This document shows positions 1 through 10,418 of a stretch of DNA of 10,418 nucleotides, piece by piece. Made by a program: the position numbers and the translations under genes. This DNA is from Cyclobacteriaceae bacterium (lineage in GTDB: Bacteria > Bacteroidota > Bacteroidia > Cytophagales > Cyclobacteriaceae): assembly GCA_019751475.1 (NCBI GenBank), contig JAIENH010000207.1, positions 1-10,418 of the forward strand, in the 5' to 3' direction. The notes under the pieces are model-generated. The model did not search any database. It worked only from the letters and a program-made list of their open reading frames with translations, and was not told the DNA's origin. Position 1 is the stretch's first letter; every line of letters begins with the position of its first letter.

Positions 1-625
1 TTTCATACGTCACTACTTCTGTTTTGGAGCTGGCATCGCCCGTGCGTGCGATGGTAATTTTACCGGAGCGGGTAATGGTGTTGTCACCGCGTTTGTTGGT
101 CACGCCCAAGCCAAAGTCGACAACTGTTTTGGCAATCTTGCTTAGCAAGGAGTCTGTTTTAGGAAATTGCTTCCCGCTAAAACTGCAACCCTCCGGGCGT
201 GAGTTAGCATCAGGTTCTGGCAACGTGACCACATTGCCCGTTGCATCATAGTGGGTGATAGTGGCTCCACCGTTTAAATGCATGTGCAAGCCACGGAAGT
301 CACCCGCACTCTCCGCATCCACAATAGCCAGCAACGCATCATCGGCCACAATAAAATTGGTGCCGTCAAGCATTCTTCCTTTGCCACCGCCTCGAGGACC
401 ACCTCCTTGGTGACTAGACCCACCAGGTCCTCCTGCACCGCTAGTTGAGTTGCCAACAGAGCTACCCACCAAGGTGAAACTAGTTCCACTGGCCAGTTGA
501 CCAGAAGTTTGTGCAAGGTCTGTCAGTTGCGATTCGCTGCCGGATGTTGTCAAGTCTTGGTTGGAACATCCCCACATCAATGCCACTACGGATGCGATGG
601 CGAGAAGAATTTTTATCTTTTTCAT
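1..625 (-). CDS. Glycine-rich surface or periplasmic lipoprotein, 3' part cut by window edge
   Basis: An open frame begins at the ATG at 625 and stays open for 208 codons to the window edge, so the stop lies outside. The N-terminus is a clear lipoprotein signal peptide: MKK, a hydrophobic stretch, then the lipobox LMWGC, which puts the acylated cysteine at residue 20. A threonine/serine-rich linker follows, then a very glycine-rich patch (GGPGG ... GGGPRGGGKG) at about residues 55-75, and then a more ordinary globular region. No family was recognised. The lipobox shows export and membrane anchoring; whether it faces the periplasm or the outside is unknown. The gene is divergent from the Fic pseudogene, with about 290 bases between their starts. 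Confidence 0.85.
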   Translation of the reverse strand, partial: MKKIKILLAIASVVALMWGCSNQDLTTSGSESQLTDLAQTSGQLASGTSFTLVGSSVGNSTSGAGGPGGSSHQGGGPRGGGKGRMLDGTNFIVADDALLAIVDAESAGDFRGLHMHLNGGATITHYDATGNVVTLPEPDANSRPEGCSFSGKQFPKTDSLLSKIAKTVVDFGLGVTNKRGDNTITRSGKITIARTGDASSKTEVVTYE

Positions 626-665
626 ATTAGTAATGAATTGTTTCCCTTTAGACGATAAAAGTAGC

Positions 666-673
666 CAAAGATT
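666..673 (-). promoter_or_regulatory. Possible -7 promoter box for the lipoprotein gene
   Basis: Read on the minus strand this is AATCTTTG, one base off the Bacteroidota -7 consensus TAnnTTTG. It would give a leader of roughly 35 bases before the ATG at 625. No good -33 TTTG element was found upstream, so support is weak. Confidence 0.25.
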
Positions 674-755
674 ATCCTGCCTTGCCCGTGTGTAGCTACT
701 TGCCCCGAAAGTGTAGATGAATCGCTCGGTTTATTTTCTTACACCTCCCGTCAAG

Positions 756-797
756 CATCGTCTCTCGCAGAGAGGGACGATCACACAGTATCGTCCC
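756..797. repeat. Palindromic REP-like element, copy A (left of fic)
   Basis: Two overlapping foldbacks are visible. ATCGTC plus TCTC (757-766) can pair with GAGA and GACGAT (770-781). Alternatively GGGACGAT (774-781) pairs with ATCGTCCC (790-797). The sequence GCATCGTCTCTCG recurs almost unchanged right of the Fic gene (about 1990-2002), and TCGTCCC recurs in both copies. The remainder of 626-821 shows only one isolated copy (733-742) of the ATTTTCTTAC box described in the fic upstream region. Confidence 0.6.
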
Positions 798-821
798 TGA
801 AGCGAGGCTCGGAAACCGCCA

Positions 822-913
822 TTTTCTTATCATTCCATTCAGCATTTGATAAGAAAATTAAAAAATCTTAACAGATAGCATTATATTTGATAAGAAATGT
901 CAATTTTCTTACC
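822..913. promoter_or_regulatory. Array of GATAAGAAA-type boxes upstream of fic (candidate operators)
   Basis: Four near-identical 11-base boxes lie in 92 bases: TTTTCTTATCA (822-832), its reverse complement TGATAAGAAAA (847-857), TGATAAGAAAT (888-898) and the inverted near-copy ATTTTCTTACC (903-913). They form two inverted pairs. The third overlaps the last two bases of the candidate -7 box, and the fourth ends two bases before the fic ATG. This layout suits autorepression. The Fic protein has a C-terminal winged-helix-like segment that could be the DNA binder, but that is inference. A further ATTTTCTTAC sits at 733-742. Confidence 0.5.
882..889 (+). promoter_or_regulatory. -7 promoter box for the fic gene
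   Basis: TATATTTG matches the Bacteroidota -7 consensus TAnnTTTG exactly and would give a leader of about 20-25 bases before the ATG at 916. A TTTG at 845-848 is too far upstream to be a normally spaced -33 element. The box overlaps the third GATAAGAAA-type box. Confidence 0.45.
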
Positions 914-915
914 AG

Positions 916-1959
916 ATGTGGAAGCCTCAACCGCTGCCAATTGCAGTCGATTTTGAAACGAAGGAAGTTTTAAGACAACTGGCGCGCGCTCATCAAGCGC
1001 TAGCCGAGCTAAAAGGTATTGCCACCACTATACCCAACGAGAATATTTTGCTGGAGACGCTCACCTTGCAAGAAGCATAAGACAGTTCAGCGATTGAAAA
1101 CATTATCACCACAGACGATGAGCTTTTCAAGTCCGCCCTTAATTTGGAAGGGCTTCAAAATTTAGCTGCTAAAGAAGTTCAAAACTATGTGGCCGCGCTG
1201 AAGCATGGTTACCAACGGGTGACAGATTTGGGATTGTTAACGAGCAATCACATTTTAGAAATCCAGCAAAAGCTGCAAACCTCACAAGCGGGCTATCGCA
1301 AGCAGGCAGCCACCGGTCAGGTGGTGTACACACCTCCTCAACACCCGGATGAAATTGTAGAGCTGATGAATAACCTGGAGCGGTTCACTAATCTTGATGA
1401 AATCAGTGATTTAGATCCGCTCGTTAAAATGGCCATTATCCATTTTCAGTTTGAAAGTATTCACCCATTCTATGACGGCAACGGCCGAACAGGTCGTATC
1501 ATCAACATTCTTTACCTGGTAAAGCAGCATTTGCTGGCACTTCCGATTTTGTACATCAGCCGGTACATCATTCAACACAAAGCCGACTACTATGAAAAAT
1601 TACAAAAGGTGCGCGATGATGGCGATTGGCAGTCATGGATTATTTATATGCTGAAAGCCGTGGAAGAATCATCCAGACAGGCCGTGGTGTTGATTAAAGA
1701 TATCAAAACACTGATGCAGCAATACAAAAACAGGCTACGCGATGGCTACAAGTTTTACAGCCAAGATTTGCTCAATAATTTGTTCAAACACCCCTACACC
1801 AAAATAGAATTTGTGCAGCGAGACTTGGGCGTGAGCCGCATCACAGCCGCCAGCTATTTAAATCAATTGGCGAATGACGGTTTACTCGAAAAGGAAAAGA
1901 TGGGCGTTAGCAACTATTACATCAATCGGCCACTCTTTGAACTTTTTGCGAGGAGATGA
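916..1959 (+). pseudogene. Fic/DOC-family AMP-transferase, interrupted by an in-frame TAA
   Basis: Reading from the ATG at 916 gives a canonical class II Fic protein of 347 codons, with one in-frame TAA at 1078-1080 (codon 55). Before the stop lies the Fic_N-type N-terminus (MWKPQPLPIAVDF ... LQEA). Immediately after it comes SSAIEN (codons 57-62), which fits the (S/T)xxxE(G/N) inhibitory-helix motif. The catalytic motif HPFYDGNGRTGR is intact at codons 183-194, with the catalytic His first. The last 60 or so codons look like the winged-helix domain common in this subfamily. Relatives normally have a basic residue where the TAA stands, so an AAA-to-TAA change is the simplest explanation. A downstream non-ATG start such as TTG at 1144 could give a 271-residue product that lacks the inhibitory motif. 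Fic enzymes transfer AMP to target hydroxyls. A sequencing error cannot be excluded. Confidence 0.85.
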
Positions 1960-1990
1960 TTACAACAATTGTCCAACAATTCACGCCCCG

Positions 1991-2058
1991 CATCGTCTCT
2001 CGAAGAGGACGATGCAATTGCCTGCACACCGTGTCGTCCCCGAGGCAGAAGACGATAC
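1991..2058. repeat. Palindromic REP-like element, copy B (right of fic)
   Basis: Two hairpins stand in tandem. CATCGTC-TCT (1991-2000) pairs with AGA and GACGATG (2004-2014, one bulged G), and GTGTCGTC (2031-2038) pairs with GACGATAC (2051-2058, one G-U). It starts about 30 bases after the fic stop and shares its core with the element at 756-797, so the broken fic gene is bracketed by related repeats. It could also act as a transcription-ending structure, although no T-run follows directly. Confidence 0.6.
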
Positions 2059-2116
2059 TTGACTTAGAATCTTAGACTTCTAAAAAAGAAATATCTTCTT
2101 TACAATTCTTTTTTTT

Positions 2117-2350
2117 ATGACCAAAGAGCTTTCCAACTACGACTTTTATCCAGACTTAAAAAAAATTAATTGCCCTACGCTCATAATCCATGGCGACTAT
2201 GATGCCATTCCAATTGAGTTGGCTCAAAACGTCAATAAATCAATTAGAACATCAACGCTTGTTATCATAAATAATGCCGGTCATTTTCCATTTGTAGAAC
2301 AGAAGCCCACATTCTTTAATACAGTCGAAAACTTTTTGACAAAGAAGTGA
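2117..2350 (+). pseudogene. C-terminal remnant of an alpha/beta hydrolase
   Basis: The 77 codons from the ATG at 2117 match only the C-terminal third of an alpha/beta-hydrolase-fold enzyme. They include a PTLIIHGDYDAIP strand-turn carrying the acid of the triad (Asp near residue 27 or 29) and NAGHFPFVEQ carrying the catalytic His at residue 56. The nucleophile elbow (GxSxG), the oxyanion region and the whole N-terminal sheet are missing, and stop codons plus the hairpin repeat lie directly upstream. The ATG sits straight after a run of eight T. A family member is usually 250-300 residues, so this should be inactive. The most likely history is deletion of the 5' part when the segment carrying fic and its repeats was rearranged or inserted. 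Confidence 0.7.
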
Positions 2351-2504
2351 TGGCGAGAGCATGCGCGAGCGGGGCTCAGATGCACGTTTTGAAGGTCACA
2401 TCATCAATTCCTTGCCGTTCAAAAGGCCCTACTCCTCTGCTCATGCAAATAAACCTGGATTGCCAAAGCTGCGAGATCCGTAGGCCATTGCCCCGATCCG
2501 TTTG

Positions 2505-2512
2505 TACATTTG
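2505..2512 (+). promoter_or_regulatory. -7-like box directly before the methyltransferase ATG
   Basis: TACATTTG matches TAnnTTTG exactly but ends only six bases before the ATG at 2519, which would make the message almost leaderless. No well-placed -33 element is visible. It may be chance; nothing else promoter-like was seen in 2351-2518. Confidence 0.25.
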
Positions 2513-2518
2513 GCGTTC

Positions 2519-3361
2519 ATGTTTGGAGAAAAAGACATTGCCGACTATTACGATCAAACCATCGACCACTACACGATATGGTGGAACTTGAAGGATAGCC
2601 AGGCTGTGCATTTTGGATATTGGGATGAAAGCACCAGAAATTTCAAGCATGCACTTCAACGCACAAACAGGGTGATGGCTTCTTTAGCTGACATACAATC
2701 TCATCATGCTGTGCTGGATGCAGGATGCGGTGTGGGTGGCGCTGCCTTTTATTTAGCCGAGAGTATAGGTTGTCGTGTAACGGGTATTACGTTGAGTCAA
2801 AAACAATTTGCACTTGCGTTAGAATTTCAAAAGCGTTTACAACTTGAAGACAAAACCCGTTTTTACGTTCAAAGCTTCCTGAATACAGGCTTTGATGACA
2901 ATAGCTTTGACGTGTATTGGGCTTGCGAAAGTAGCTGCCATGCCAATGACAGAGTAGCTTGGCTTAACGAAGCAAAACGAATATTGAAACCATCGGGTAA
3001 AATTATTGTCGCGGATTATTTTTTAACAGAAGCAGGTAAACTGGATAAGAATCAATACATAAAAAAATGGGGAGACCTGTGGGCTATCCCATCGTTTCAT
3101 ACGCATGAAAATTTTATAGATGAAGCTGTGAGGCAGGGATTCAAGGTTGCCGTCAATCAAGATGTGAGTAAGAATATCGAGAGATCCTCCCAATATATGT
3201 ATTGGTTCTACCTAATAGGCGCCATACCTTCCCGGTTGTATAACCTGTTTCACTACACCTCAAGATTTGCGAAGTATCACTACCGATCGGGTTATTACCA
3301 GTACAAAGCGCTAAAAGGTAATCTCTGGCAATACCGAATGGTGGTGCTCCAATCAGTGTAA
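2519..3361 (+). CDS. SAM-dependent class I methyltransferase (cyclopropane-synthase/tocopherol-methyltransferase-like)
   Basis: This 280-residue protein has the class I Rossmann methyltransferase core. Motif I, VLDAGCGVGG, lies at about residues 65-74, followed by the beta2 segment GCRVTGITLSQKQ and the post-core strand GKIIVADYF. The segment VHFGYWDE near residue 33 precedes motif I, as in small-molecule methyltransferases of the UbiE/tocopherol/cyclopropane-fatty-acid-synthase group. The substrate is unknown; a lipid, quinone or other small molecule is more likely than protein or nucleic acid. The ATG at 2519 was chosen over an in-frame TTG nine bases upstream because MFGEKDIADYYDQ is a typical start for the family. 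No signal peptide is seen, so it should be cytoplasmic. It stands alone and converges on the DJ-1-like gene, 39 bases apart. Confidence 0.85.
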   Translation: MFGEKDIADYYDQTIDHYTIWWNLKDSQAVHFGYWDESTRNFKHALQRTNRVMASLADIQSHHAVLDAGCGVGGAAFYLAESIGCRVTGITLSQKQFALALEFQKRLQLEDKTRFYVQSFLNTGFDDNSFDVYWACESSCHANDRVAWLNEAKRILKPSGKIIVADYFLTEAGKLDKNQYIKKWGDLWAIPSFHTHENFIDEAVRQGFKVAVNQDVSKNIERSSQYMYWFYLIGAIPSRLYNLFHYTSRFAKYHYRSGYYQYKALKGNLWQYRMVVLQSV

Positions 3362-3400
3362 GAGGATACTCAAGATCAAAAATTCAGAACAGGTAGTTAT

Positions 3401-4147
3401 CTACTTCTTCCAGTTTTGCAAACGTTCAAGATAGATGTACGACTCCACGAAGGCGCGGTGCTCTGAGCTGGTCATTTTTTCTAACAAAATCAATGACGAT
3501 ACATAGCTGGCGAGGTTGCCATTGGAAGAGCTGAACTTGCCATCTTCTACATAGGTCACGAGGGAGTCGTCTTGCACAAGCAGGTTCGGGTAGTCAATTT
3601 TTAGTTGCTTGCCGCCACCAATCCACGTCACAATTTTTTTTCCGTCCGCGATGCCCGATGCGCCAATCAGTTGCGCCCCGGCACAATTGCTCACGGTATA
3701 GTCTGTCTCCTGATTTTTGCGCTTGATGAACTCCACAATTTTATTGTTGTGCACCTGGGCATACATGTCATACGCGCTGGGCACGAAGAGTACAGTCAGC
3801 TTCGGGCAATTTTCAAATGTATAATCCGGAACGAGCTTAAGGCCTTCTTCGGTTACAATTGGTTTTTCCGTCTCTGCGATGGTGACCACGTTGAAAAGTT
3901 GCTTGCCATCCTGGGTTGCCTTGGTAAACACATCGGCTGCTGCGGTCACCTCCGTGGTGAGCACCCCGTTGTACATCAGAAGGCCAATGGTCGGCAGCTC
4001 TGTCTTAAATGGTTTCAGGTGTTTGGTAAGCGTATCGGCCGGGCTTACCGCTTGGTTGGAAGTGGATGAATTAGGATTGCAACTGAACAGCATGGCTGAA
4101 CCTAATGCGGCAACTAAAAGAAGTTTGGTAGTCATCATCTTAAGCAT
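3401..4147 (-). CDS. Exported DJ-1/PfpI-family lipoprotein
   Basis: The protein has a lipoprotein signal ending in MLFSC (Cys23 from the first ATG) and a short Ser/Thr linker. A DJ-1/PfpI (class I glutamine-amidotransferase-like) domain runs from about residue 52. The first strand and helix read IGLLMYNGVLTTEVTAAADVF, and the nucleophile elbow SNCAGAQ puts the putative nucleophile at Cys155. The following GIADGKKIVTWIGG matches the GLLDGxxxTTHW region of relatives, but the usual His is absent here (TWI). Most DJ-1/PfpI proteins are cytosolic, so the lipid anchor is notable. The reaction is unknown; hydratase, amidase or glyoxalase-like activities occur in the superfamily. Starts are possible at 4147, 4138 and 4135. 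MMTTKLLLVAA from 4138 makes a tidier signal peptide and leaves a longer leader behind the promoter-like box. Confidence 0.8.
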   Translation of the reverse strand: MLKMMTTKLLLVAALGSAMLFSCNPNSSTSNQAVSPADTLTKHLKPFKTELPTIGLLMYNGVLTTEVTAAADVFTKATQDGKQLFNVVTIAETEKPIVTEEGLKLVPDYTFENCPKLTVLFVPSAYDMYAQVHNNKIVEFIKRKNQETDYTVSNCAGAQLIGASGIADGKKIVTWIGGGKQLKIDYPNLLVQDDSLVTYVEDGKFSSSNGNLASYVSSLILLEKMTSSEHRAFVESYIYLERLQNWKK

Positions 4148-4155
4148 TTGTGACG

Positions 4156-4163
4156 CAAAGTTA
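4156..4163 (-). promoter_or_regulatory. -7 promoter box for the DJ-1-like lipoprotein gene
   Basis: On the minus strand this reads TAACTTTG, an exact TAnnTTTG match. A start of transcription near 4152 would favour translation from 4138 or 4135. No clear -33 TTTG is seen; that position falls next to a strong palindrome. Confidence 0.4.
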
Positions 4164-4188
4164 GTGGTTATTGCTGAACTGTGTCTTC

Positions 4189-4222
4189 AGGCGTCTGACA
4201 CCTTGGAGGTGTCTTGACGCCT
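4189..4222. repeat. 34-base near-perfect palindrome
   Basis: AGGCGTC-T-GACACCT, a TGG centre, then AGGTGTC-TT-GACGCCT: both 7-base half-arms on each side are perfectly complementary. It lies about 25 bases upstream of the -7 box of the DJ-1-like gene, close to where a -33 element would be, and far downstream of the permease stop. It may be a dispersed Bacteroidota palindrome, an operator, or a bidirectional terminator-like hairpin. No T-run follows in either direction. Confidence 0.65.
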
Positions 4223-4366
4223 AAGGCATGCGGCCGCGTGAGCGATGGAGGCATTTGTTTGAGCCCGAAATGGAACTGTGCGGCTGGCTGGCGAGTGCCG
4301 ACAGCGCGACCCGCTTACCCGACTTAGCTAAGTAGATTTTGGAAAAAGCATTTTGTTTTGATTGTG
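4223..4366. other. Intergenic segment without a recognisable gene
   Basis: No credible coding frame is seen. The stretch is G+C-richer than its surroundings and includes GTTTGAGCCCGAAATGGAAC and GACAGCGCGACCCG, wording that I associate from memory with recurrent intergenic sequence in Bacteroidota genomes, and a small CTTAGCTAAG palindrome near its end. I assign no function. Confidence 0.3.
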
Positions 4367-4467
4367 CCCTCCTTCGTTAGCACTTCGGAGGGTAAAGGGG
4401 CACGCCCTCCTTTGCAAAAGCTTCCACCTACACTTCGTTTCGGTCGGACAAGTCGGAGGGCATGCCC
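4367..4467. repeat. Compound palindromic repeat downstream of the permease gene
   Basis: CCCTCC (4367-4372) pairs with GGAGGG (4387-4392), and GGGCACGCCCTCC (4398-4410) pairs with GGAGGGCATGCCC (4455-4467, one mismatch). The loop of the second holds GGTCGGACAAGTC-type sequence typical of dispersed hairpin repeats in this phylum. It begins 11 bases after the permease stop, so it could also stabilise or end that message. Confidence 0.55.
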
Positions 4468-4477
4468 AAAATTTCTC

Positions 4478-7093
4478 TTACTCCATCCTCAATGCCTTTG
4501 TTGGATTGGCGTTAGCCGCACGAAGGGAGAGTATGCTGATGGTGAGCCACGCAACGAGGAACACGGCAATACCCGCCATCGCGAACCGAAGAGGATTGAT
4601 GACGGCTTGTAACGTAAAGTTCTGTTCCCACCGGCTGATGAGGTACCACGTGAGCGGTGTGGCCACCACGAGTGCAATCAAAATCAGCCAGATAAATTCT
4701 CGCGTGATGAGCATCACCACGCCCGGCACCGATGCACCCAACACTTTGCGGATGCCAATCTCTTTGGTTCTTCGCTCTACCACAAAGGCAGTGAGCCCCA
4801 GCAAACCAAGGCAGCCGATAAACATGGCGAGACCGGTGAACACGCCCGCTACTTTGCCCAACTGTTGGTCGGCCTTATACTGGCGGTCAAATTCTACATC
4901 TAAGAAAGAATAGTCGAACGGAAGGTATGGAATGAGTTCATTCCATTTTTTCTGAACACGACTAATGGTGGCGGGCAAGTCGTTTCCCTCCACACGTATG
5001 GACATGCGACCGACATATTTTGTCATGGCTATCATGAGCGGTTCTACTTTGGTGTGCAACGAGCGATAGTGGAAATCTTTCATCACGCCAATGATTTTTC
5101 CGAGGTATCTCCCTTGCACTTTCTTGCCAATGGCTTGCTCGGGCGTCCAGCCGAAATCTTTCATAGCCGTCTCGTTGATAAGATATGCAGTGGTGTCATC
5201 CGACTTTACATCGCGCAGAAAGTCGCGACCCGCCAAAAGTTTTATTTGGTAGGTGTTGAGGAAATCATGGTCAACAAAAATAAAATTGATATTGGTAGGC
5301 GACATCTTGCCATCGGTCATTTCAATTCTTGTGAAGTTGTTACCGGCCGATTGTCCAGGTGTGGAGGTTGAACCTGCCACATTAATTACGCCAGGCACTT
5401 GCCGCAATTCATTTTTAACAGCATCGAGGTAATTGACAATGGCCGTATCGCCATTGGTAGGAACAACGAGCATTCCTTCTTTGTCGAAACCGAGGTCTTG
5501 TTTGCGCACAACATCGAGTTGGTCGTACACCAGCAACGTGCCGGCTACCAGCATGATGGAGATGATGAACTGTGTGCTCACCAGCACTTTCCTCAACGCG
5601 TTATGACCAAATATTCCTTTTGACGAAGGTCGAAAGATTTGCACCGGTTGAAACTTCGAGATGATGTAGGCGGGATACGCACCTGCCAGTAATCCGATAA
5701 AAATGACGAGCGCTAAAATTACCCCGGCTACCAACCATGCATTCGGTAAAATCGAAAAGCTCAACGGAGATTCAACCAGTGTGCGGAAGGGCGGAAGTGC
5801 AATCCACACCAAGACAATGGCAATCAGTGATGCAATGATGGTGATGATGAGCGATTCGCCAATAAACTGTGCAATCAACATTCTCCTGAGTGCGCCCAAT
5901 GTTTTGCGCAACCCAACTTCCTTTAGTCTTCGTGAAGCACGTGCTGTAGCCAGATTGATGTAGTTGAAACATGCTATCAAGAGAATAAACACGGCAATGA
6001 TGGACAGGATGTACATGTTGTTCATGCTGCCGCGCGTGCCATTCTCCCATGAGCGAGGTGGAGCCATGTAGATGCTGGCCAGCGGCTGTAGCGGAAGGTC
6101 TTCATAATACATTCCACCTTTCTCTACATTTCTTTCTATAAAGTCTTTCATTTTCGCGCGTACGTTGTCAACAGATGCACCTTCTCTCAATAACACATAG
6201 GTATGAAAGCCATTCCAGAACCAGGCGCGGTCTTCGTTGTCTTTGTTATTACGACTCCACGTTGAAAAAGAAATGAGGTTGGAGAATCGAAAGTGTGAAT
6301 TCTCAGGCACGTCTTCCATCACACCTGTTACTTTATAATTATCGTAATCCATTTTAAGCGTTTGCCCGACAGGCTCTTCGCTTCCAAAATATTTTTTTGC
6401 CATCGACTCTGTCAACACAATCGAAAACGGTTCGCGTAGAGCCGTCTTCTTGTCACCATTTATGAGTTTAAAGCTGAAAATATCAAACACACTACTGTCC
6501 GCGATATACGATTCACGCTCGTAGCTGGAAATTTCATTTCGTTGTGCGAGCAAACTCCATTGCTGAAGGCGTACATAGTTTTCCACTTCCGGAAAATCCT
6601 TGAGAAACCTCGGACCCATGGGAGGTGAGCTGGTGGACTGAAACAACTCTTCATTCTCCGTCCGTAGGTTTTCTACAATGCGAAAGATGCGGTCTGCTTT
6701 TTCGTGATGTCGGTCGAACGAAAGCTCACTGTACACATAGAAGGCGATGAGTGAAAACGTAGCCAAACCAACGGCCAGCCCGACAATATTAATGGTTGAG
6801 AACCCAGCACTGCGCACCAGCGAACGCACAGAGGTAATGAAGTAATTTTTAAACATGGGCGAGGAATTAAATGATGATGAACGACCAATTTTCTTTATGA
6901 TGCCGGGACGGAATAAGCCGAGGATGCGAACAGAGAAATGAAGATTTGCTTTCGCGATACTTCCGTGTGCCACCTCGCGCTCGAACATTTCTGTCAAGTC
7001 GCCTTCAATGTCTTCTGCAATGGCGGGATCGCAGAACCAACGGAAGAACCGCAGAAAAAATTTGGGAGGCTGTATGTGTGGAAGTGAATTCAT
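4478..7093 (-). CDS. MacB/FtsX-type ABC transporter permease with N-terminal prefix domain
   Basis: The 871-residue protein has a cytoplasmic prefix at about 1-75 (DPAIAEDIEGDLTEMFERE), as in the 'permease prefix domain' proteins that travel with PadR regulators. Two MacB-core/FtsX halves follow. The first has a membrane segment near 98-120, a periplasmic core to about 355 and three membrane segments at about 359-382, 412-435 and 452-478. The second has a membrane segment near 503-523, a second periplasmic core, and three membrane segments in the last 125 residues. The paired cytoplasmic motifs KEVGLRKTLGA (391-401) and KEIGIRKVLGA mark the ATPase-coupling loops. Such proteins work with a LolD/MacB-type ATPase in antimicrobial, lipoprotein or signal-peptide export; no ATPase gene is in this window. 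Its ATG overlaps the PadR stop by four bases (ATGA), showing co-translation. Confidence 0.93.
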   Translation of the reverse strand: MNSLPHIQPPKFFLRFFRWFCDPAIAEDIEGDLTEMFEREVAHGSIAKANLHFSVRILGLFRPGIIKKIGRSSSFNSSPMFKNYFITSVRSLVRSAGFSTINIVGLAVGLATFSLIAFYVYSELSFDRHHEKADRIFRIVENLRTENEELFQSTSSPPMGPRFLKDFPEVENYVRLQQWSLLAQRNEISSYERESYIADSSVFDIFSFKLINGDKKTALREPFSIVLTESMAKKYFGSEEPVGQTLKMDYDNYKVTGVMEDVPENSHFRFSNLISFSTWSRNNKDNEDRAWFWNGFHTYVLLREGASVDNVRAKMKDFIERNVEKGGMYYEDLPLQPLASIYMAPPRSWENGTRGSMNNMYILSIIAVFILLIACFNYINLATARASRRLKEVGLRKTLGALRRMLIAQFIGESLIITIIASLIAIVLVWIALPPFRTLVESPLSFSILPNAWLVAGVILALVIFIGLLAGAYPAYIISKFQPVQIFRPSSKGIFGHNALRKVLVSTQFIISIMLVAGTLLVYDQLDVVRKQDLGFDKEGMLVVPTNGDTAIVNYLDAVKNELRQVPGVINVAGSTSTPGQSAGNNFTRIEMTDGKMSPTNINFIFVDHDFLNTYQIKLLAGRDFLRDVKSDDTTAYLINETAMKDFGWTPEQAIGKKVQGRYLGKIIGVMKDFHYRSLHTKVEPLMIAMTKYVGRMSIRVEGNDLPATISRVQKKWNELIPYLPFDYSFLDVEFDRQYKADQQLGKVAGVFTGLAMFIGCLGLLGLTAFVVERRTKEIGIRKVLGASVPGVVMLITREFIWLILIALVVATPLTWYLISRWEQNFTLQAVINPLRFAMAGIAVFLVAWLTISILSLRAANANPTKALRME

Positions 7094-7422
7094 GATTTGG
7101 GGAATGCCATGCGTGGGATGGCCTTGAACATATCTACCCGTTGTTCTTGTGTTTCGCGCAAGACCCGTGAGCCCAGACTAGTAAGACTGAAGTATCGTTT
7201 TCGTTTGCCTCCGCGCACGCTGGTGGCTTCTCCAAATTCCGATGTCAGGTAGCCTTTGCTTTCCAGTCGTCTCAGCACCGTTTGCAGTGCGCCAATGCTC
7301 ACCTTTCGGTTTTGTCGCGCTTCGATTTCGTCAATGATGGCCACACCATACGCTTCTTTATAGAGTATGCCCACCGTGAGCATCACAATTTCTTCAAATT
7401 CTCCGAGTTGGTGTCGGTTCAT
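7090..7422 (-). CDS. PadR-family transcriptional repressor
   Basis: The 110-residue protein carries a PadR-type winged helix: GEFEEIVMLTVGIL helix 1, AYGVAIIDEIE, the recognition-helix region VSIGALQTVLRRLESKGYL, and the wing GGKRKRYFSLTSLGSRVL (about residues 70-88). The short C-terminal tail is typical of the small subfamily paired with prefix-domain permeases. It is the first gene of the operon and overlaps the permease gene. PadR proteins usually repress their own operon and are released by a small ligand or stress. A candidate operator sits 30 bases upstream. The ATG at 7422 is the only sensible start. Confidence 0.93.
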   Translation of the reverse strand: MNRHQLGEFEEIVMLTVGILYKEAYGVAIIDEIEARQNRKVSIGALQTVLRRLESKGYLTSEFGEATSVRGGKRKRYFSLTSLGSRVLRETQEQRVDMFKAIPRMAFPKS

Positions 7423-7451
7423 GTAAGTTATATTTGACTTAAATGTAGTTA

Positions 7452-7470
7452 TTATACTCTTAGTTTATAA
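7452..7470. promoter_or_regulatory. Candidate PadR operator (19-base dyad)
   Basis: TTATACTCTTAGTTTATAA has 14 of 18 symmetric positions (TTATA-nn-CT-n-AG-nn-TATAA). It lies in the only intergenic space before the padR-like gene, where a promoter must be. Its role as operator is inference. The rest of 7423-7507 is AT-rich with no other clear element. Confidence 0.4.
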
Positions 7471-7507
7471 AATGGTTACAGAAACATCTAAAACTTTTAA
7501 AAGGAAA

Positions 7508-7937
7508 TCACACGCCTAATTCTGTTTGTGCGAGATGAGCGATGGCTTGATGCCAATTTTCATACGCCTGCCCAAACCGATTCGCACCAATGTTTAATCA
7601 TCAGGTCGCGGGGTTCGCCTGCTTCAGCTTGCAACACATCGCTGACGGTGATGGTGCCTCGCTGTGCGGGCAACGGCAGCGATGGCCATACTTTTTTATT
7701 CTGCGATAACTTGACATGCGCATTCTGCACTTGCTTGCCGGTATATCCTTTTTCTAAAAACAAGTAAAGGCCAATGAGGCCGAAGGTTAGCTTAATGGGC
7801 TTGGTGCTCGCATCAGCGGTTTGTGCTGCAAATGCATCTACGGCATGTTGATGGATAAAGTAAACCGGGTCGGGGTGGGCGAGGGTGTAGAAGGAGAGTT
7901 CGTGGAATTGGTGTTCGGGGGATTTAACAGTTGACAT
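7508..7937 (-). pseudogene. DUF5946-like protein with a one-base frameshift near the 3' end
   Basis: The frame from the ATG at 7937 encodes FHELSFYTLAHPDPVYFIHQH, KPIKLTFGLIGLYLFLEKGYTG and DLMIKHWCESVW, which I recognise from memory as DUF5946-like; the function is unknown. It then ends at TGA 7560-7562 after 125 codons. Removing one G from the GGG run at 7571-7573 restores VWQAYENWHQAIAHL and a stop at 7508-7510, giving 142 residues with the C-terminus expected of the family. The extra base is thus a recent mutation or a sequencing error; a slightly shortened protein may still be made. The gene starts four bases after the reverse transcriptase stop on the same strand, so it may be co-transcribed. 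No signal peptide or membrane segment is evident. Confidence 0.75.
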
Positions 7938-7941
7938 CTCG

Positions 7942-8808
7942 CTAGTTCAAAGCGTTAAATCTATTCGTGTTTGTTTGCCGAATTCTTTTCAAATAATTTG
8001 TAAATGGCTTGGTCTCAGTCTTTGAAAGCTTCTCTTCTTTAACTTTCTCTCTAATTTTTATGGGCGCATCGATATAATTGTTACCAACTTCAATTCCTGT
8101 TATTGTTTGCTTTCCGCAGTATAAAGTTTTTCGAAAACTAACCCTAAATCCACCACTAACTACGATTGTTAATATTTCTCGGACTTTATCAACGAAATCA
8201 TTAGCCGATGAAAATGTCAAATCATCAATGTATCTAGTATAGGTAATTTTATTAGGTTGGCATAAAGAAATCAGTCTTTCATCTATCGGAATAAATGCTA
8301 AATTTGATAGCGCTGGGCTTGTTGGCGCCCCTTGGGGTAATCCATATTTATATGTTGTCAGACGAGTTAACCAATTAGCCTGAACATTTGTAAACCCTAA
8401 TTTCAAAAAAACCGAATATACGAGTCCATTATTTACAGATGGGAAAAAATCTTTCAAGTCAGTTGTAAACTTATACTTTTTGCCTTGATGGATTTTAGCG
8501 TTACTAATGTTACTTTTTCCTCTTACACCACCTTGAATGTGAGTTGGCATGACAACGTTGTCAAGAATATTTCTCTTAATATTAGATTGGATTTTTTTCA
8601 AAGCACCCTTGCTTGGAGTAATCGTTCGCTTTTTCGGTGCTCCATTGCTGTATGTTTTTATACTACCATCTTTATCTTTCTTATATTTTGAGTATTCATA
8701 ATAATGATCTTCCACATTCTCCAGTACAAATTTTAATTCATCAATACTGCATTTCAGTTTTGCGGCTAAATACTTCAGTTGATTTTTTTCAAACCGCGAA
8801 AAATGCAT
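7942..8808 (-). CDS. Retron-type reverse transcriptase
   Basis: The 288-residue protein has the RT palm motifs in order. NAKIH (103-107) is the retron-specific NAxxH of region X, TTDLKDFFPSV holds catalytic Asp117, GLPQGAPTSPALSNLAF is RT domain 4, YTRYIDDLTFS holds the YxDD catalytic pair (193-196), and TITGIEV (ITG 236-238) corresponds to the retron VTG of region Y. There is no maturase or endonuclease domain, which argues against a group II intron RT. Retron RTs prime from a specific guanosine in their own msr-msd RNA and make a branched RNA-DNA. The length is on the short side for retron RTs (about 300 and up). The ATG at 8808 is preferred to the TTG at 8814. It overlaps the HTH gene by 20 bases, so the two are translationally linked. 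Composition is AT-rich (15 G+C in the 60 bases 8641-8700), unlike the permease operon. Confidence 0.93.
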   Translation of the reverse strand: MHFSRFEKNQLKYLAAKLKCSIDELKFVLENVEDHYYEYSKYKKDKDGSIKTYSNGAPKKRTITPSKGALKKIQSNIKRNILDNVVMPTHIQGGVRGKSNISNAKIHQGKKYKFTTDLKDFFPSVNNGLVYSVFLKLGFTNVQANWLTRLTTYKYGLPQGAPTSPALSNLAFIPIDERLISLCQPNKITYTRYIDDLTFSSANDFVDKVREILTIVVSGGFRVSFRKTLYCGKQTITGIEVGNNYIDAPIKIREKVKEEKLSKTETKPFTNYLKRIRQTNTNRFNALN

Positions 8809-9079
8809 TGACAAGAGATTTTACTGAAGGGCTTACCATTTCAAATGCTTTTCGCTTTTCTTCTGGGACATCATCAGCATTCATAGACAAGTAGAAGATA
8901 ATCGGGAGTGGCATTTCCAATTTTTCACTTATAACTTTTAATGTAGATAAATTAGGCTCTCTTTGGTTATTCTCAATTTGTGATAAGTAGGTTTGAGTTA
9001 TGCCACAAATGCCGGCCAAATCTTCTTGGGTCATGTCTTTTTGATTTCTAAGTTTCTTAATTGTCGTACCTAGGTCCAT
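8789..9079 (-). CDS. XRE-family helix-turn-helix protein of the retron operon
   Basis: The protein has 96 residues. Residues 6-60 form a standard XRE/HTH_3 domain: IKKLRNQKDMTQEDLAGICGI, then TQTYLSQIENNQREPNLSTL as recognition helix and turn, then LKVISEKLEMPLP. A 35-residue tail (DDVPEEKRKAFEMVSPSVKSLVNAFFAV) could mediate dimerisation or partner contact. Its 3' end overlaps the RT start. By family it should bind DNA and could repress the cassette promoter. In retrons whose accessory gene is a small HTH protein (type VI in the published classification, from memory) it may also act as the antitoxin-like or sensor part. The ATG at 9079 is the only good start. Confidence 0.9.
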   Translation of the reverse strand: MDLGTTIKKLRNQKDMTQEDLAGICGITQTYLSQIENNQREPNLSTLKVISEKLEMPLPIIFYLSMNADDVPEEKRKAFEMVSPSVKSLVNAFFAV

Positions 9080-9124
9080 AAAGCTGAGTATCTATTTGTA
9101 AGTAAAAAAAAGGGGAAATGTCGG

Positions 9125-9364
9125 TTACATGAATTGGTCAAGCAAGTTGTGAATGTCGTCCCAGAAGAATTTCAACAAGATGGTCACAGCTTTTGAAAAA
9201 ATTTCTTTTTGCTTATCAGCTGCGATTTCCTGTCGGAGTTTTTCCAAGAGTTCTACACAATCGTCCAGATGCTTAACTTCTTCATCCGAAAGAGAACACC
9301 GGTTCTTAGTGATAGACTTGACACCTAGTATCAGCCTATCGATGTTTTGTTCATTATTGAGCAT
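9125..9364 (-). CDS. Small helical protein of unknown function in the retron operon
   Basis: This entry takes the ATG at 9364, giving 79 residues (MLNNEQNIDR...). The same frame is open upstream to an ATG at 9514, but that part reads like non-coding sequence and lies in the candidate retron RNA. The protein is predicted by eye to be all-helical. A charged, heptad-like middle (DEEVKHLDDCVELLEKLRQEI) is followed by a more hydrophobic, tryptophan-containing C-terminal helix (KAVTILLKFFWDDIHNLLDQFM) that could bind a membrane or a partner protein. No family was recognised. It sits 45 bases before the HTH gene in the same direction, with no separate promoter seen. Position and size make it the best candidate for a retron effector or chaperone, but that is inference. 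Confidence 0.6.
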   Translation of the reverse strand: MLNNEQNIDRLILGVKSITKNRCSLSDEEVKHLDDCVELLEKLRQEIAADKQKEIFSKAVTILLKFFWDDIHNLLDQFM

Positions 9365-9410
9365 ATTAATTGTTTTAACATTAGGGATATCCCTTGCTCT
9401 CTTAGATATA

Positions 9411-9643
9411 CCTTCAGCTAAAAGCGTACTCGATGTTCTCTCATCACACTTCCCCCTAATCTTGCTCTTAAATAATAATAAGTTCGTCAACGGTTGACCC
9501 GGATAGGATACCATTTCCCAGAGACAGGTCTCACGAACAAAGCATTTTCAACATCATTTATTCTAGTGCTGTTGAATGACCCAAAATTGGGTTGCCAGAA
9601 AAAACAAATTCTGACTGTAAGTTTTACTCCCTTTAGCTGCAGG
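9411..9643 (-). ncRNA. Candidate retron msr-msd RNA
   Basis: On the minus strand the region is bounded by arms CCTGCAGCTAAA (from 9643) and TTTAGCTGAAGG (to 9411), complementary at 11 of 12 positions, as expected for retron a1/a2. A G-run (GGG) directly follows the first arm, where the branching G should be. Between the arms stem-loops follow one another: GTAA/TTAC (9617-9627), a 7-bp stem with an 8-base loop (9594-9615), ACCCAA/TTGGGT (9579-9592), TTCAACA/TGTTGAA (9547-9576), and GTTCGT/ACGAAC (9482-9538) with an inner GAGAC/GTCTC (9521-9532). An alternative hairpin, GTCAAC/GTTGAC, lies at 9486-9498. It lies between a promoter-like box and the first small ORF of the RT operon, the usual place. 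The arms were found by eye, and a chance match is possible. Confidence 0.5.
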
Positions 9644-9671
9644 ACAAAACACCATTTCAAAGAACGATGCC

Positions 9672-9679
9672 CAAATATA
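9672..9679 (-). promoter_or_regulatory. -7 promoter box of the retron cassette
   Basis: On the minus strand this reads TATATTTG, an exact TAnnTTTG match. Transcription would start near 9665-9668, about 20-25 bases before the first arm of the candidate retron RNA. The nearest upstream TTTTG (9712-9716) is too far for a normal -33 box. Confidence 0.45.
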
Positions 9680-9785
9680 CGGTAAATATTGCTATGAGTT
9701 AATAAAATTGACAAAATTATTTTTTACTGATTGTCTATATATTTGATAATCAAATGATTAATGTCTGTATCTGGGGGAAAATCCC

Positions 9786-9935
9786 TCGCCTTTAGGCGAA
9801 GACTTTAGTTTAATAATTTTGTATGAAGCGAACACTAGATGACTCAGCGATTTTCTCCCGAATGATTTCCGAGTCTATATGCATTGCTTCAGTCGGCTTT
9901 AGCCGATACTAAACCCTTCGGCTTTTAGCCGAAGG
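9786..9935. repeat. Three related short hairpins between the caspase gene and the retron
   Basis: TCGCCT-tt-AGGCGA (9786-9799), TCGGCT-tt-AGCCGA (9893-9906) and CCTTCGGCT-ttt-AGCCGAAGG (9915-9935) are perfect stems built on one theme. They look like a small dispersed palindromic repeat family. The last stands five bases after the caspase-family stop and could slow or end that transcript, though no T-run follows. The remaining sequence of 9680-9939 is AT-rich with no gene seen. Confidence 0.6.
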
Positions 9936-9939
9936 TAGT

Positions 9940-10418
9940 TCAGTTTTGAATTTTCCACGATAACCATTTATCACTTAAGTCAGGTGCAACTAAAACCTGT
10001 GGTGTTTGCTTTATTCCATTTTCAATCAACGATGCTTTAGGGATTTCACTTTCTAAATAGCCTTTCAGTTGTTCAAGTGTGAGGTCGCCTTGCGACTCTT
10101 TCAACTTTTTTAGGACGTGATAGGTAAAAAGACCGTGATATTCTTTATTTAAAGGCAACGACATTTCTTCACCACTTGCGGCTGTAAAAGCAACTATATT
10201 TCCTTCAACAATATCTCCTTTCGGTTTTACTTTTACAGTACGAGCAGCCAATAACCCATTATCGCCTCGACCTCCACCACTAAAGCAAGCATCAAGAAAA
10301 ACTAACACTTTTGCCGCTTTAGAAGATGCCAATTTTGTATACAAATCTTTTAAACTGATAGCATCTTTCAGGTTTGATGCTGTAACGTCAACCGGAATAA
10401 GATAACCCTGTCGGGTTT
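9940..10418 (-). CDS. Caspase-family (peptidase C14) protein, C-terminal part only
   Basis: The frame is open from the right edge to the TGA at 9940, so the 5' end lies outside. The visible 158 codons begin GYLIPVDVTASNLKDAISL, typical of prokaryotic caspase-like domains, and continue to KVLVFLDACFSGGG, where the catalytic Cys codon is 10285-10287. AFTAASGEEMSLP and HGLFTYHVLKKL follow, as in the C14 fold. The partner His of the dyad (GHG motif) would lie upstream, outside the window. The protein ends shortly after the caspase fold, so any regulatory, sensor or repeat domain must be N-terminal. Such proteases occur in bacterial immunity and cell-death systems and also as lone genes. A TTG at 10344 could be mistaken for a start, but conserved residues precede it. 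Confidence 0.88.
   Translation of the reverse strand, partial: TRQGYLIPVDVTASNLKDAISLKDLYTKLASSKAAKVLVFLDACFSGGGRGDNGLLAARTVKVKPKGDIVEGNIVAFTAASGEEMSLPLNKEYHGLFTYHVLKKLKESQGDLTLEQLKGYLESEIPKASLIENGIKQTPQVLVAPDLSDKWLSWKIQN

Follow-up and report, generated by a model that had tools for sequence, protein, structure and literature searches.

What kind of retron a cassette of one structured RNA and three proteins represents, and what that RNA does, is the question raised by the minus strand of contig JAIENH010000207.1 from a Cyclobacteriaceae bacterium (assembly GCA_019751475.1). The whole stretch considered, positions 1 to 10,418 of this contig, is referred to here as the window. In the direction of transcription, the cassette consists of a promoter-like stretch, about 300 nt of non-coding sequence, and genes for a small protein (SP) of 79 amino acids (aa), an XRE-type helix-turn-helix (HTH) protein, and a reverse transcriptase (RT). 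Judged by its sequence, the cassette is a real and typical type VI retron, and all three proteins match a catalogued system. Comparison with related loci further suggests base pairing between the retron RNA and the beginning of the gene for its own small protein; control of this kind would be new.

Proteins of a type VI retron

The RT contains the residues NAKIH, YIDD, and ITG (corresponding to NAxxH, YxDD, and a VTG-like motif). For the type assignment, the models RT_VI, HTH_VI, and SP_VI of PADLOC-DB 2.0.0 were used. RT_VI is the best model for the RT (3.2e-70, 234.6 bits; the runner-up, RT_III-A, reaches 180.1 bits), the XRE protein matches HTH_VI (3.3e-29), and the 79-aa protein matches SP_VI (1.1e-19), in which SP presumably stands for small protein. 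A quick RT tree, calculated from 77 rows without bootstrap, places the window RT within a type VI clade of 31 rows (Shimodaira-Hasegawa-like approximate likelihood ratio test, SH-aLRT, 98). The original prediction, made from the letters of the window, had described a retron RT and a likeness to type VI, and both descriptions are borne out. It had also placed the third, helical protein outside the described types, which is incorrect since PADLOC-DB carries this protein as SP_VI. An undescribed retron type was rejected on the matches to the three models and the type VI clade. A non-retron RT was rejected as well, because no Drt or group II model of NCBIfam passes its cut-off for the window RT: Drt2 scores 37.6 bits (cut-off 390), group II 33.7 (300), Drt3a 31.5 (200), and Drt4 19.3 (450). 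The best NCBIfam model is that of the retron St85 RT, which is below its own cut-off (147.1 of 235). When ten RTs were scanned singly, the five of type VI scored best with RT_VI and the other five with III-A, XIII, or II-A. The likeness of the cassette to retron type VI thus comprises the three protein models, the gene order of the relatives, and the RT clade, and no difference was found at the protein level. The other Bacteroidota retrons (III-A, II-A, and XIII by best RT model) have related RTs but no SP or HTH_VI match, except for a weak SP match in locus L047 (E 0.0025) that was not repeated by a wider SP profile. The scheme of retron types is reportedly defined by Mestre et al. in 2020.

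At E <= 1e-30, there are 430 RT relatives (the window RT included), with 120 among the matches listed. A profile search found the order SP-HTH-RT in 21 loci including the window, which confirms that the small open reading frame (ORF) and the XRE gene co-occur with related RTs. The type VI clade of the tree contains 25 rows with HTH, four HTH-less rows, and two rows from viral contigs (L089 and L090). The absence of HTH in 4 of 29 type VI rows falls at three positions as drawn, and the starred branches force at least two changes. Type VI RT loci that have the small ORF and lack HTH are L034, L035, L039, L064, and L087, the last on a plasmid. The possibility that close relatives lack the adjacent genes therefore applies to HTH in these rows and not to the small ORF, which is kept.

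The 79-aa ORF is a real gene, since it has 17 relatives besides itself (76–97 aa in length and 47–89% identical); several of these are on contigs matching those of RT relatives in size (42543, 25128, 10167, and 2819). A longer frame of 129 aa, from 9514, begins within the candidate RNA and is probably not in use; it was rejected on this start and on the lengths of the relatives. SP has no Pfam match above the cut-off and no NCBIfam match, and its structure model has four helices (mean pLDDT 84.4). Every type VI locus inspected has the small ORF, and the SP_VI model misses the small proteins of L034, L035, L039, L064, L044, and L086. Given this constant presence, the dispensability of HTH, and the number of controls that appear to be placed on SP, it is likely the effector.

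The candidate retron RNA and its upstream elements

A structured segment upstream of SP had also been predicted, and a candidate retron RNA with comparative support lies there. After a boxA-like element, the order is arm a1, an invariant G, hairpins, a variable stretch, direct repeat r1, element b (complementary to a stretch b′ of the SP gene), arm a2, direct repeat r2, and the SP start. These features were compared in a set of 25 type VI loci. Left out of this set were L028 and L086, in which the core repeat motif does not stand at both places, the distant L045, L085 with its RNA truncated at the 5′ end, and L087, a near copy of L064; L003, L025, and L026, also without the motif at both places, were placed by hand. 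Between boxA and the SP start codon, the sole invariant column is a G (G39 in alignment A4, window position 9627), which, located just 3′ of a1, is a candidate branching guanosine. The longest a1:a2 helix has 7–14 contiguous base pairs, G-U allowed, in all 25 loci, and its letters differ (CAGCTAAAGG:CTTTTAGCTG in the window, TTGCTAAGAG:CTCTTAGCAA in L002, GTAATTAAATTCAA:TTGAATTTAATTAC in L005, and TCTGTAACTAAATG:CATTTAGTTACAGA in L025). Own a1:a2 pairs beat other-locus pairs by 3.5 or 4.0 kcal/mol in two tests with double centring (p <= 5e-5, which is the floor of 20,000 permutations). Against shuffles, this helix is individually significant (p <= 0.05) in 15 of the 25 loci (window, p 0.05). 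Taken as a set, the loci thus have, by own-locus pairing, a predicted structured RNA close to the RT gene that is bounded by the inverted repeats a1 and a2. A scan of Rfam gave no match over the gathering score and two below it, both to eukaryotic families. Among the RT_VI loci, L125 has boxA, the small ORF, and an HTH ORF, without evident r1/r2 or b:b′, and represents a divergent RNA form.

The 9-mer GTTCTTTGA is read here as a candidate boxA because it also occurs in the 16S leader of the same genome and nearly matches the boxA consensus of rRNA leaders. The boxA of rRNA leaders is described as the NusB/S10 site, with the gammaproteobacterial consensus GYTCTTTAANA (PMC5725501). The sequence GTTCTTTGA(A)A is one letter off this consensus and differs from rRNA-leader boxA in preceding a retron RNA and mRNA. 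A loose boxA pattern, fixed after the loci had been seen, is present upstream of SP in each of the 27 type VI loci first assembled (exact GTTCTTTGA in 24; one letter off in L004, L028, and L035), at 251–418 nt from the SP start. In contrast, it is absent from the sense strand upstream of the RT (300–1482 nt examined) in all 32 other RT loci (L008–L020, L046–L051, L053–L062, and L070–L072; not all typed). The bare 7-mer GTTCTTT is non-specific (26/27 type VI vs. 7/32 other RT loci). The exact 9-mer is also found in six of six later loci. Furthermore, boxA occurs in L086 and L087 and not in L085, in which the 5′ part of the RNA is missing beside an IS4351 gene. The viral-contig rows L089 and L090 have no GTTCTTTGA, and the RT match of L090 begins at base 13 of the stretch examined. 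Among five genomes with a 16S match, two have the 9-mer upstream of 16S, namely the window's own genome (G000, L077; 164 nt before the gene) and G772 (L075; 143 nt before). The 16S leaders of G289, G174 (418 nt examined), and G321 (138 nt examined) did not show it, and in G174 (L074) it is located downstream of 16S.

The promoter of the cassette extends past 9679, where the original prediction had ended it. A TAnnTTTG sequence, presumably a −7 element of the Bacteroidota type, is located near boxA in the window and in part of the other loci. Upstream of boxA, the loci with HTH have ATTAACTnnnAGTTAAT-like palindromes (mean 10.7 of 14; 10 of 23 individually p <= 0.05; window 10/14, p 0.21), and none of four HTH-less loci has one. 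The palindrome model was read off the same loci, so its informative part is the contrast with the HTH-less loci. The palindrome is a candidate HTH operator, and the pattern fits an autorepressor. Alternatively, HTH could be an antitoxin or effector with SP as an accessory. Its frame overlaps that of the RT (9079–8789 and 8808–7942, as had been predicted; a TTG at 8814 is another possible RT start), and small XRE proteins are often antitoxins, with HipB-like NCBIfam models matching HTH, all below cut-off. Yet the HTH-less type VI rows have the small ORF, and the palindrome is absent along with HTH, which makes this alternative quite improbable. HTH as the effector was rejected on its absence from these rows. 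Retron-Sda1, which is unplaced in existing types, shows that a neighboring HTH can be irrelevant to defense (PMC12548924).

For the direct repeats, a core motif (such as GCAGG) was found at both the r1 and r2 places in 22 of 27 loci; L003, L025, L026, L028, and L086 are the exceptions, and the pattern was written after the repeats had been seen. The three letters before the core have an identity of 0.92 within a locus vs. 0.33 between loci (p <= 5e-5). Per-locus repeats are mostly not significant against shuffles (window p 0.12), and the signal is in the shared position and flanks. Pairing of r2 with the SP leader is own-specific (p 0.004), whereas that of r1 is not (p 0.42 and 0.38), so identity rather than complementarity appears to be kept between r1 and r2. 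An r1-leader attenuator was rejected for this reason. The repeats may instead indicate that complementary DNA (cDNA) made over r1 pairs with r2 in the SP leader, in which case the multicopy single-stranded DNA (msDNA) would be a trans-acting regulator, or that the repeats serve template re-annealing (repeat synthesis). The flank identity and the unspecific r1 pairing favor this explanation, but the identity would be explained equally well if a single co-evolving RNA- or DNA-binding protein had a site in each repeat, and the five exceptions do not fit it. It is rather unlikely, and it can hold together with the translational control proposed below.

Predicted pairing with the small-protein gene

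Two parts of the candidate RNA are predicted to pair with the SP gene in a locus-specific manner. The interval between r1 and r2 pairs with the SP leader with an own-locus excess of −7.9 kcal/mol, and in 17 of 25 loci the own partner ranks first. The a2 core alone gives −1.96 and the segment after a2 gives −2.44 (both p <= 5e-5); therefore, a2 can pair with either a1 or the SP leader. The longest helix between the a2 region and the leader is individually significant (p <= 0.05) in 10 of 25 loci. The decoys upstream:a2, upstream:leader, msd:a2, msd:leader, coding sequence (CDS):leader, r1:leader, and a1:leader were not significant (p 0.10–0.67).

The second pairing, b:b′, connects b with SP codons of about 19–25 at the NRCSLS motif; its tests followed an unexpected score of a decoy (a2 region:CDS). 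In SP CDS positions 50–90, the best 10-mer with b scores 18.28 of 20 for the own locus vs. 13.97 for others (p <= 5e-5), and 21 of 25 own pairs reach at least 17/20 vs. 16% of other-locus pairs. The CDS windows 10–50, 90–130, and 130–170 gave 0 of 25 loci each. In all 25 loci, the best 10-mer contains no more than one mismatch, with up to three G-U pairs, and the register is shifted in L006 and L027. The longest helix is individually significant (p <= 0.05) in 16 of 25 loci vs. 2 of 25 for a control window. The paired letters differ widely, as in GAGAACATCG:CGGTGTTCTC of L002, ACGAACTACG:CGTAGTTCGT of L034, GAGTAGTACG:CGTACTACTC of L039, AGGGTATTAC:GTGATACCCT of L035, and GAGAGAACATCG with CGGTGTTCTCTT of the window. 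Among later loci, five of six (L124 and L126–L129) score 19/20 (p 0.005–0.035 each). Of the loci set aside, L087 was left out and four were scored apart, with 20 of 20 for L086 and L085 and 19 for L045; the same codons are paired by quite different letters in L045 and L086. The loci with small proteins undetected by SP_VI also keep b:b′, with at most one mismatch in L034, L035, L039, L064, and L044 and a perfect match at the same place in L086, and for this reason b:b′ is taken to reflect a nucleotide-level constraint.

These patterns may be explained, with roughly even confidence, by a type VI retron in which the RNA controls translation of the likely effector SP and HTH represses the operon. 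The order would be promoter, boxA, retron RNA (a1 to a2), SP, HTH, and RT. SP would be a toxic effector, and its start would be buried in a fold of b and a2 with the SP gene, as suggested by the nested order b-a2-r2-leader-ATG-b′. Pairing of a1 with a2, the retron RNA fold held by the RT, would compete with this fold. Synthesis of retron cDNA normally starts directly 5′ of a2. Because b is located directly 5′ of a2, reverse transcription would remove b, and the RNA would thereby couple translation of the effector to the folding of the retron RNA and to cDNA synthesis. HTH would act at the promoter palindrome, and boxA would allow RNA polymerase to traverse the long untranslated leader. If a phage damaged the RT-RNA-cDNA complex, SP would be freed or induced and growth would stop, as in other retrons. 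The best-supported parts of this proposal are the gene set, the predicted RNA with a1/a2, and the pairings.

Several observations weigh against this proposal. The longest a1:a2 helix is no better than shuffles in 10 of 25 loci, clearly so in L064, L026, L067, L007, and L068, and the own partner is the single best in just 4/25 or 6/25 loci in the two tests. The window RNA is not unusually stable as a single sequence (fold z −0.87), and RNAalifold predicted 0 pairs from the MAFFT alignment A3. A reversed-leader decoy was significant with the a2 region (−1.82, p 0.001), four times weaker than the leader itself, so some composition effect remains. For b:b′, the CDS window 50–90 was picked after the data had been seen, and only the six later loci are free of that choice. 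Three of these six are near copies of earlier loci: the SP of L124 is identical to that of L023, the SP of L126 is nearly identical to that of L067, and L128 is also near L067. Moreover, L125 has no b:b′ (15/20, p 0.56), L028, scored apart, is marginal (16/20, p 0.085), and L127 scored 18/20 (p 0.10) in a control window, one of 15 such windows in the later loci. A Foldseek comparison of the SP model with the PDB found no match at E <= 0.001 (best 0.68). Finally, the nested b:b′ occurs in none of 25 minimum-energy structures, at a median cost of 5.4 kcal/mol; for the window, 0.3 kcal/mol separates the a1:a2 fold from the b:b′ fold.

The a1:a2 and b:b′ helices cross in all 25 loci, and therefore they can coexist only as a pseudoknot, a serious alternative to the nested fold. 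Such a pseudoknot, or an RNase III site that splits the RNA from the mRNA, would suit an ordinary type VI retron in which, as in other tripartite retrons, the RT-msDNA complex keeps SP and/or HTH inactive at the protein level and the pairings with the SP gene merely shape or process the RNA without translational control. Protein-level sequestration is described for retrons (PMC12948488). At least seven a1:a2 pairs are within the minimum-energy fold of 17/25 loci, in line with this explanation. Conversely, the SP start codon lies within two nested own-specific helices, as expected for burial of the start site. This explanation is tenable, at less than even probability.

A broader generalization of the translational proposal is that type VI retrons are gated by nucleic-acid pairing and not by protein sequestration alone. 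The RNA would be a cis antisense switch, b acting on effector codons and a2 on the start region, and reverse transcription would both remove b and produce cDNA complementary to r2. Effector translation would then be governed by cDNA synthesis, and rRNA-type antitermination would sustain the transcript. This generalization is doubtful. In type I toxin-antitoxin systems such as tisB and hok, the start region of a small protein can likewise be buried by RNA pairing; here, in contrast, the RNA that pairs belongs to the same strand, upstream of the gene, and is a predicted retron RNA. If pairing controls translation, effector synthesis in this retron mechanism would be regulated by RNA and cDNA, and the conserved NRCSLS codons of SP would be kept partly for RNA pairing. 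The comparison names boxA, a1/a2, r1/r2, and b/b′ as mutable elements.

In the literature searched, the sole relevant mention of type VI retrons among the matches listed was a list entry for a Vibrio strain (PMC13249269). The search on boxA and retrons gave no relevant paper, and that on effector translation and antisense gave no mention of retrons among the matches listed. No description of the RNA features given here was found in this literature, to which the original type description does not belong, and the type VI RNA may already have been predicted there. What is new here is the candidate type VI retron RNA upstream of SP, with its boxA, a1/a2, and SP-gene pairings.

Genomic neighborhood and mobility

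The positions of the cassette features are given in Table 1.

Table 1. Features of the retron cassette, in window coordinates.
Feature	Position	Strand	Basis
RT (RT_VI), 288 aa	7942..8808	-	PADLOC match, motifs, tree
XRE/HTH protein (HTH_VI)	8789..9079	-	PADLOC match
SP, 79 aa, four predicted helices	9125..9364	-	SP_VI match, relatives, structure model
b′, SP codons at NRCSLS motif, partner of b	9290..9301	-	Complementarity tests
SP leader (tail), to which a2 and its 3′ neighboring segment may alternatively pair	9365..9391	-	Cross-locus pairing
Direct repeat r2 (AGAGCAAG), between a2 and SP leader	9393..9400	-	Repeat analysis
a2 arm	9415..9424	-	10 bp with a1
Element b (GAGAGAACATCG), complementary to SP codons	9431..9442	-	Pairing tests
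Direct repeat r1 (AGAGCAAG)	9461..9468	-	Repeat analysis
Invariant G just 3′ of a1, candidate branching guanosine	9627	-	Alignment, 25 loci
a1 arm	9630..9639	-	10 bp with a2
Candidate retron RNA (msr-msd), approximate borders	9411..9665	-	Comparative evidence
boxA-like GTTCTTTGA, presumed transcript 5′ end	9657..9665	-	Motif conservation; same 9-mer in own 16S leader
Bacteroidota-type −7 element TATATTTG	9672..9679	-	Sequence
Candidate HTH site 5′ of the −7 element, an operator-like palindrome of the ATTAACTnnnAGTTAAT type (ATTAACTcatAGcAAta in the window)	9687..9703	-	

The cassette is part of an A+T-rich block, with a G+C content of 0.33–0.39 in windows 7751 to 10250 and 0.40–0.54 in all others, consistent with the compact AT-rich composition claimed earlier. 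Among 95 other genomes of the same genus or order, no comparable RT was found (best other match 84.8 bits vs. 645), and type VI members were found on plasmids and on a viral contig. Acquisition as a unit, also part of the original prediction, is likely for these two reasons. Four further plasmid records have other neighbors in three cases and no annotation in one, and phage records gave three weak RT matches. Locus L085, on a Riemerella plasmid with floR, is the type VI retron truncated next to an IS4351 gene. The loci L064 and L087, the latter on the Bacteroides uniformis plasmid pBUN2, are near-identical HTH-less type VI loci, a sign of transfer.

Downstream of the RT, a gene for a DUF5946 protein (7560–7937, minus strand) begins 4 nt past the RT stop. 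Its relatives in seven other genomes of the same genus are all without a retron RT match. In an empty-site test, five DUF5946 loci had no caspase-like or PadR gene within about 1.5 kb on each side. Directly upstream of the retron, a cut fragment of a caspase-like protein (9940–10416, minus strand; Peptidase_C14, 2e-07) is present. Elsewhere in the window, positions 1144–1959 encode what is presumably a Fic-like protein, by its HPFxxGNGRxGR motif. Finally, three related short hairpins, of the GGCTAAAAGCC, CGGCTAAAGCCG, and CGCCTAAAGGCG types, are located beside the cassette on the minus strand (9783–9936), and the exact 12-mer CGGCTAAAGCCG is present 29 times in the genome as a repetitive extragenic palindromic (REP)-like repeat.

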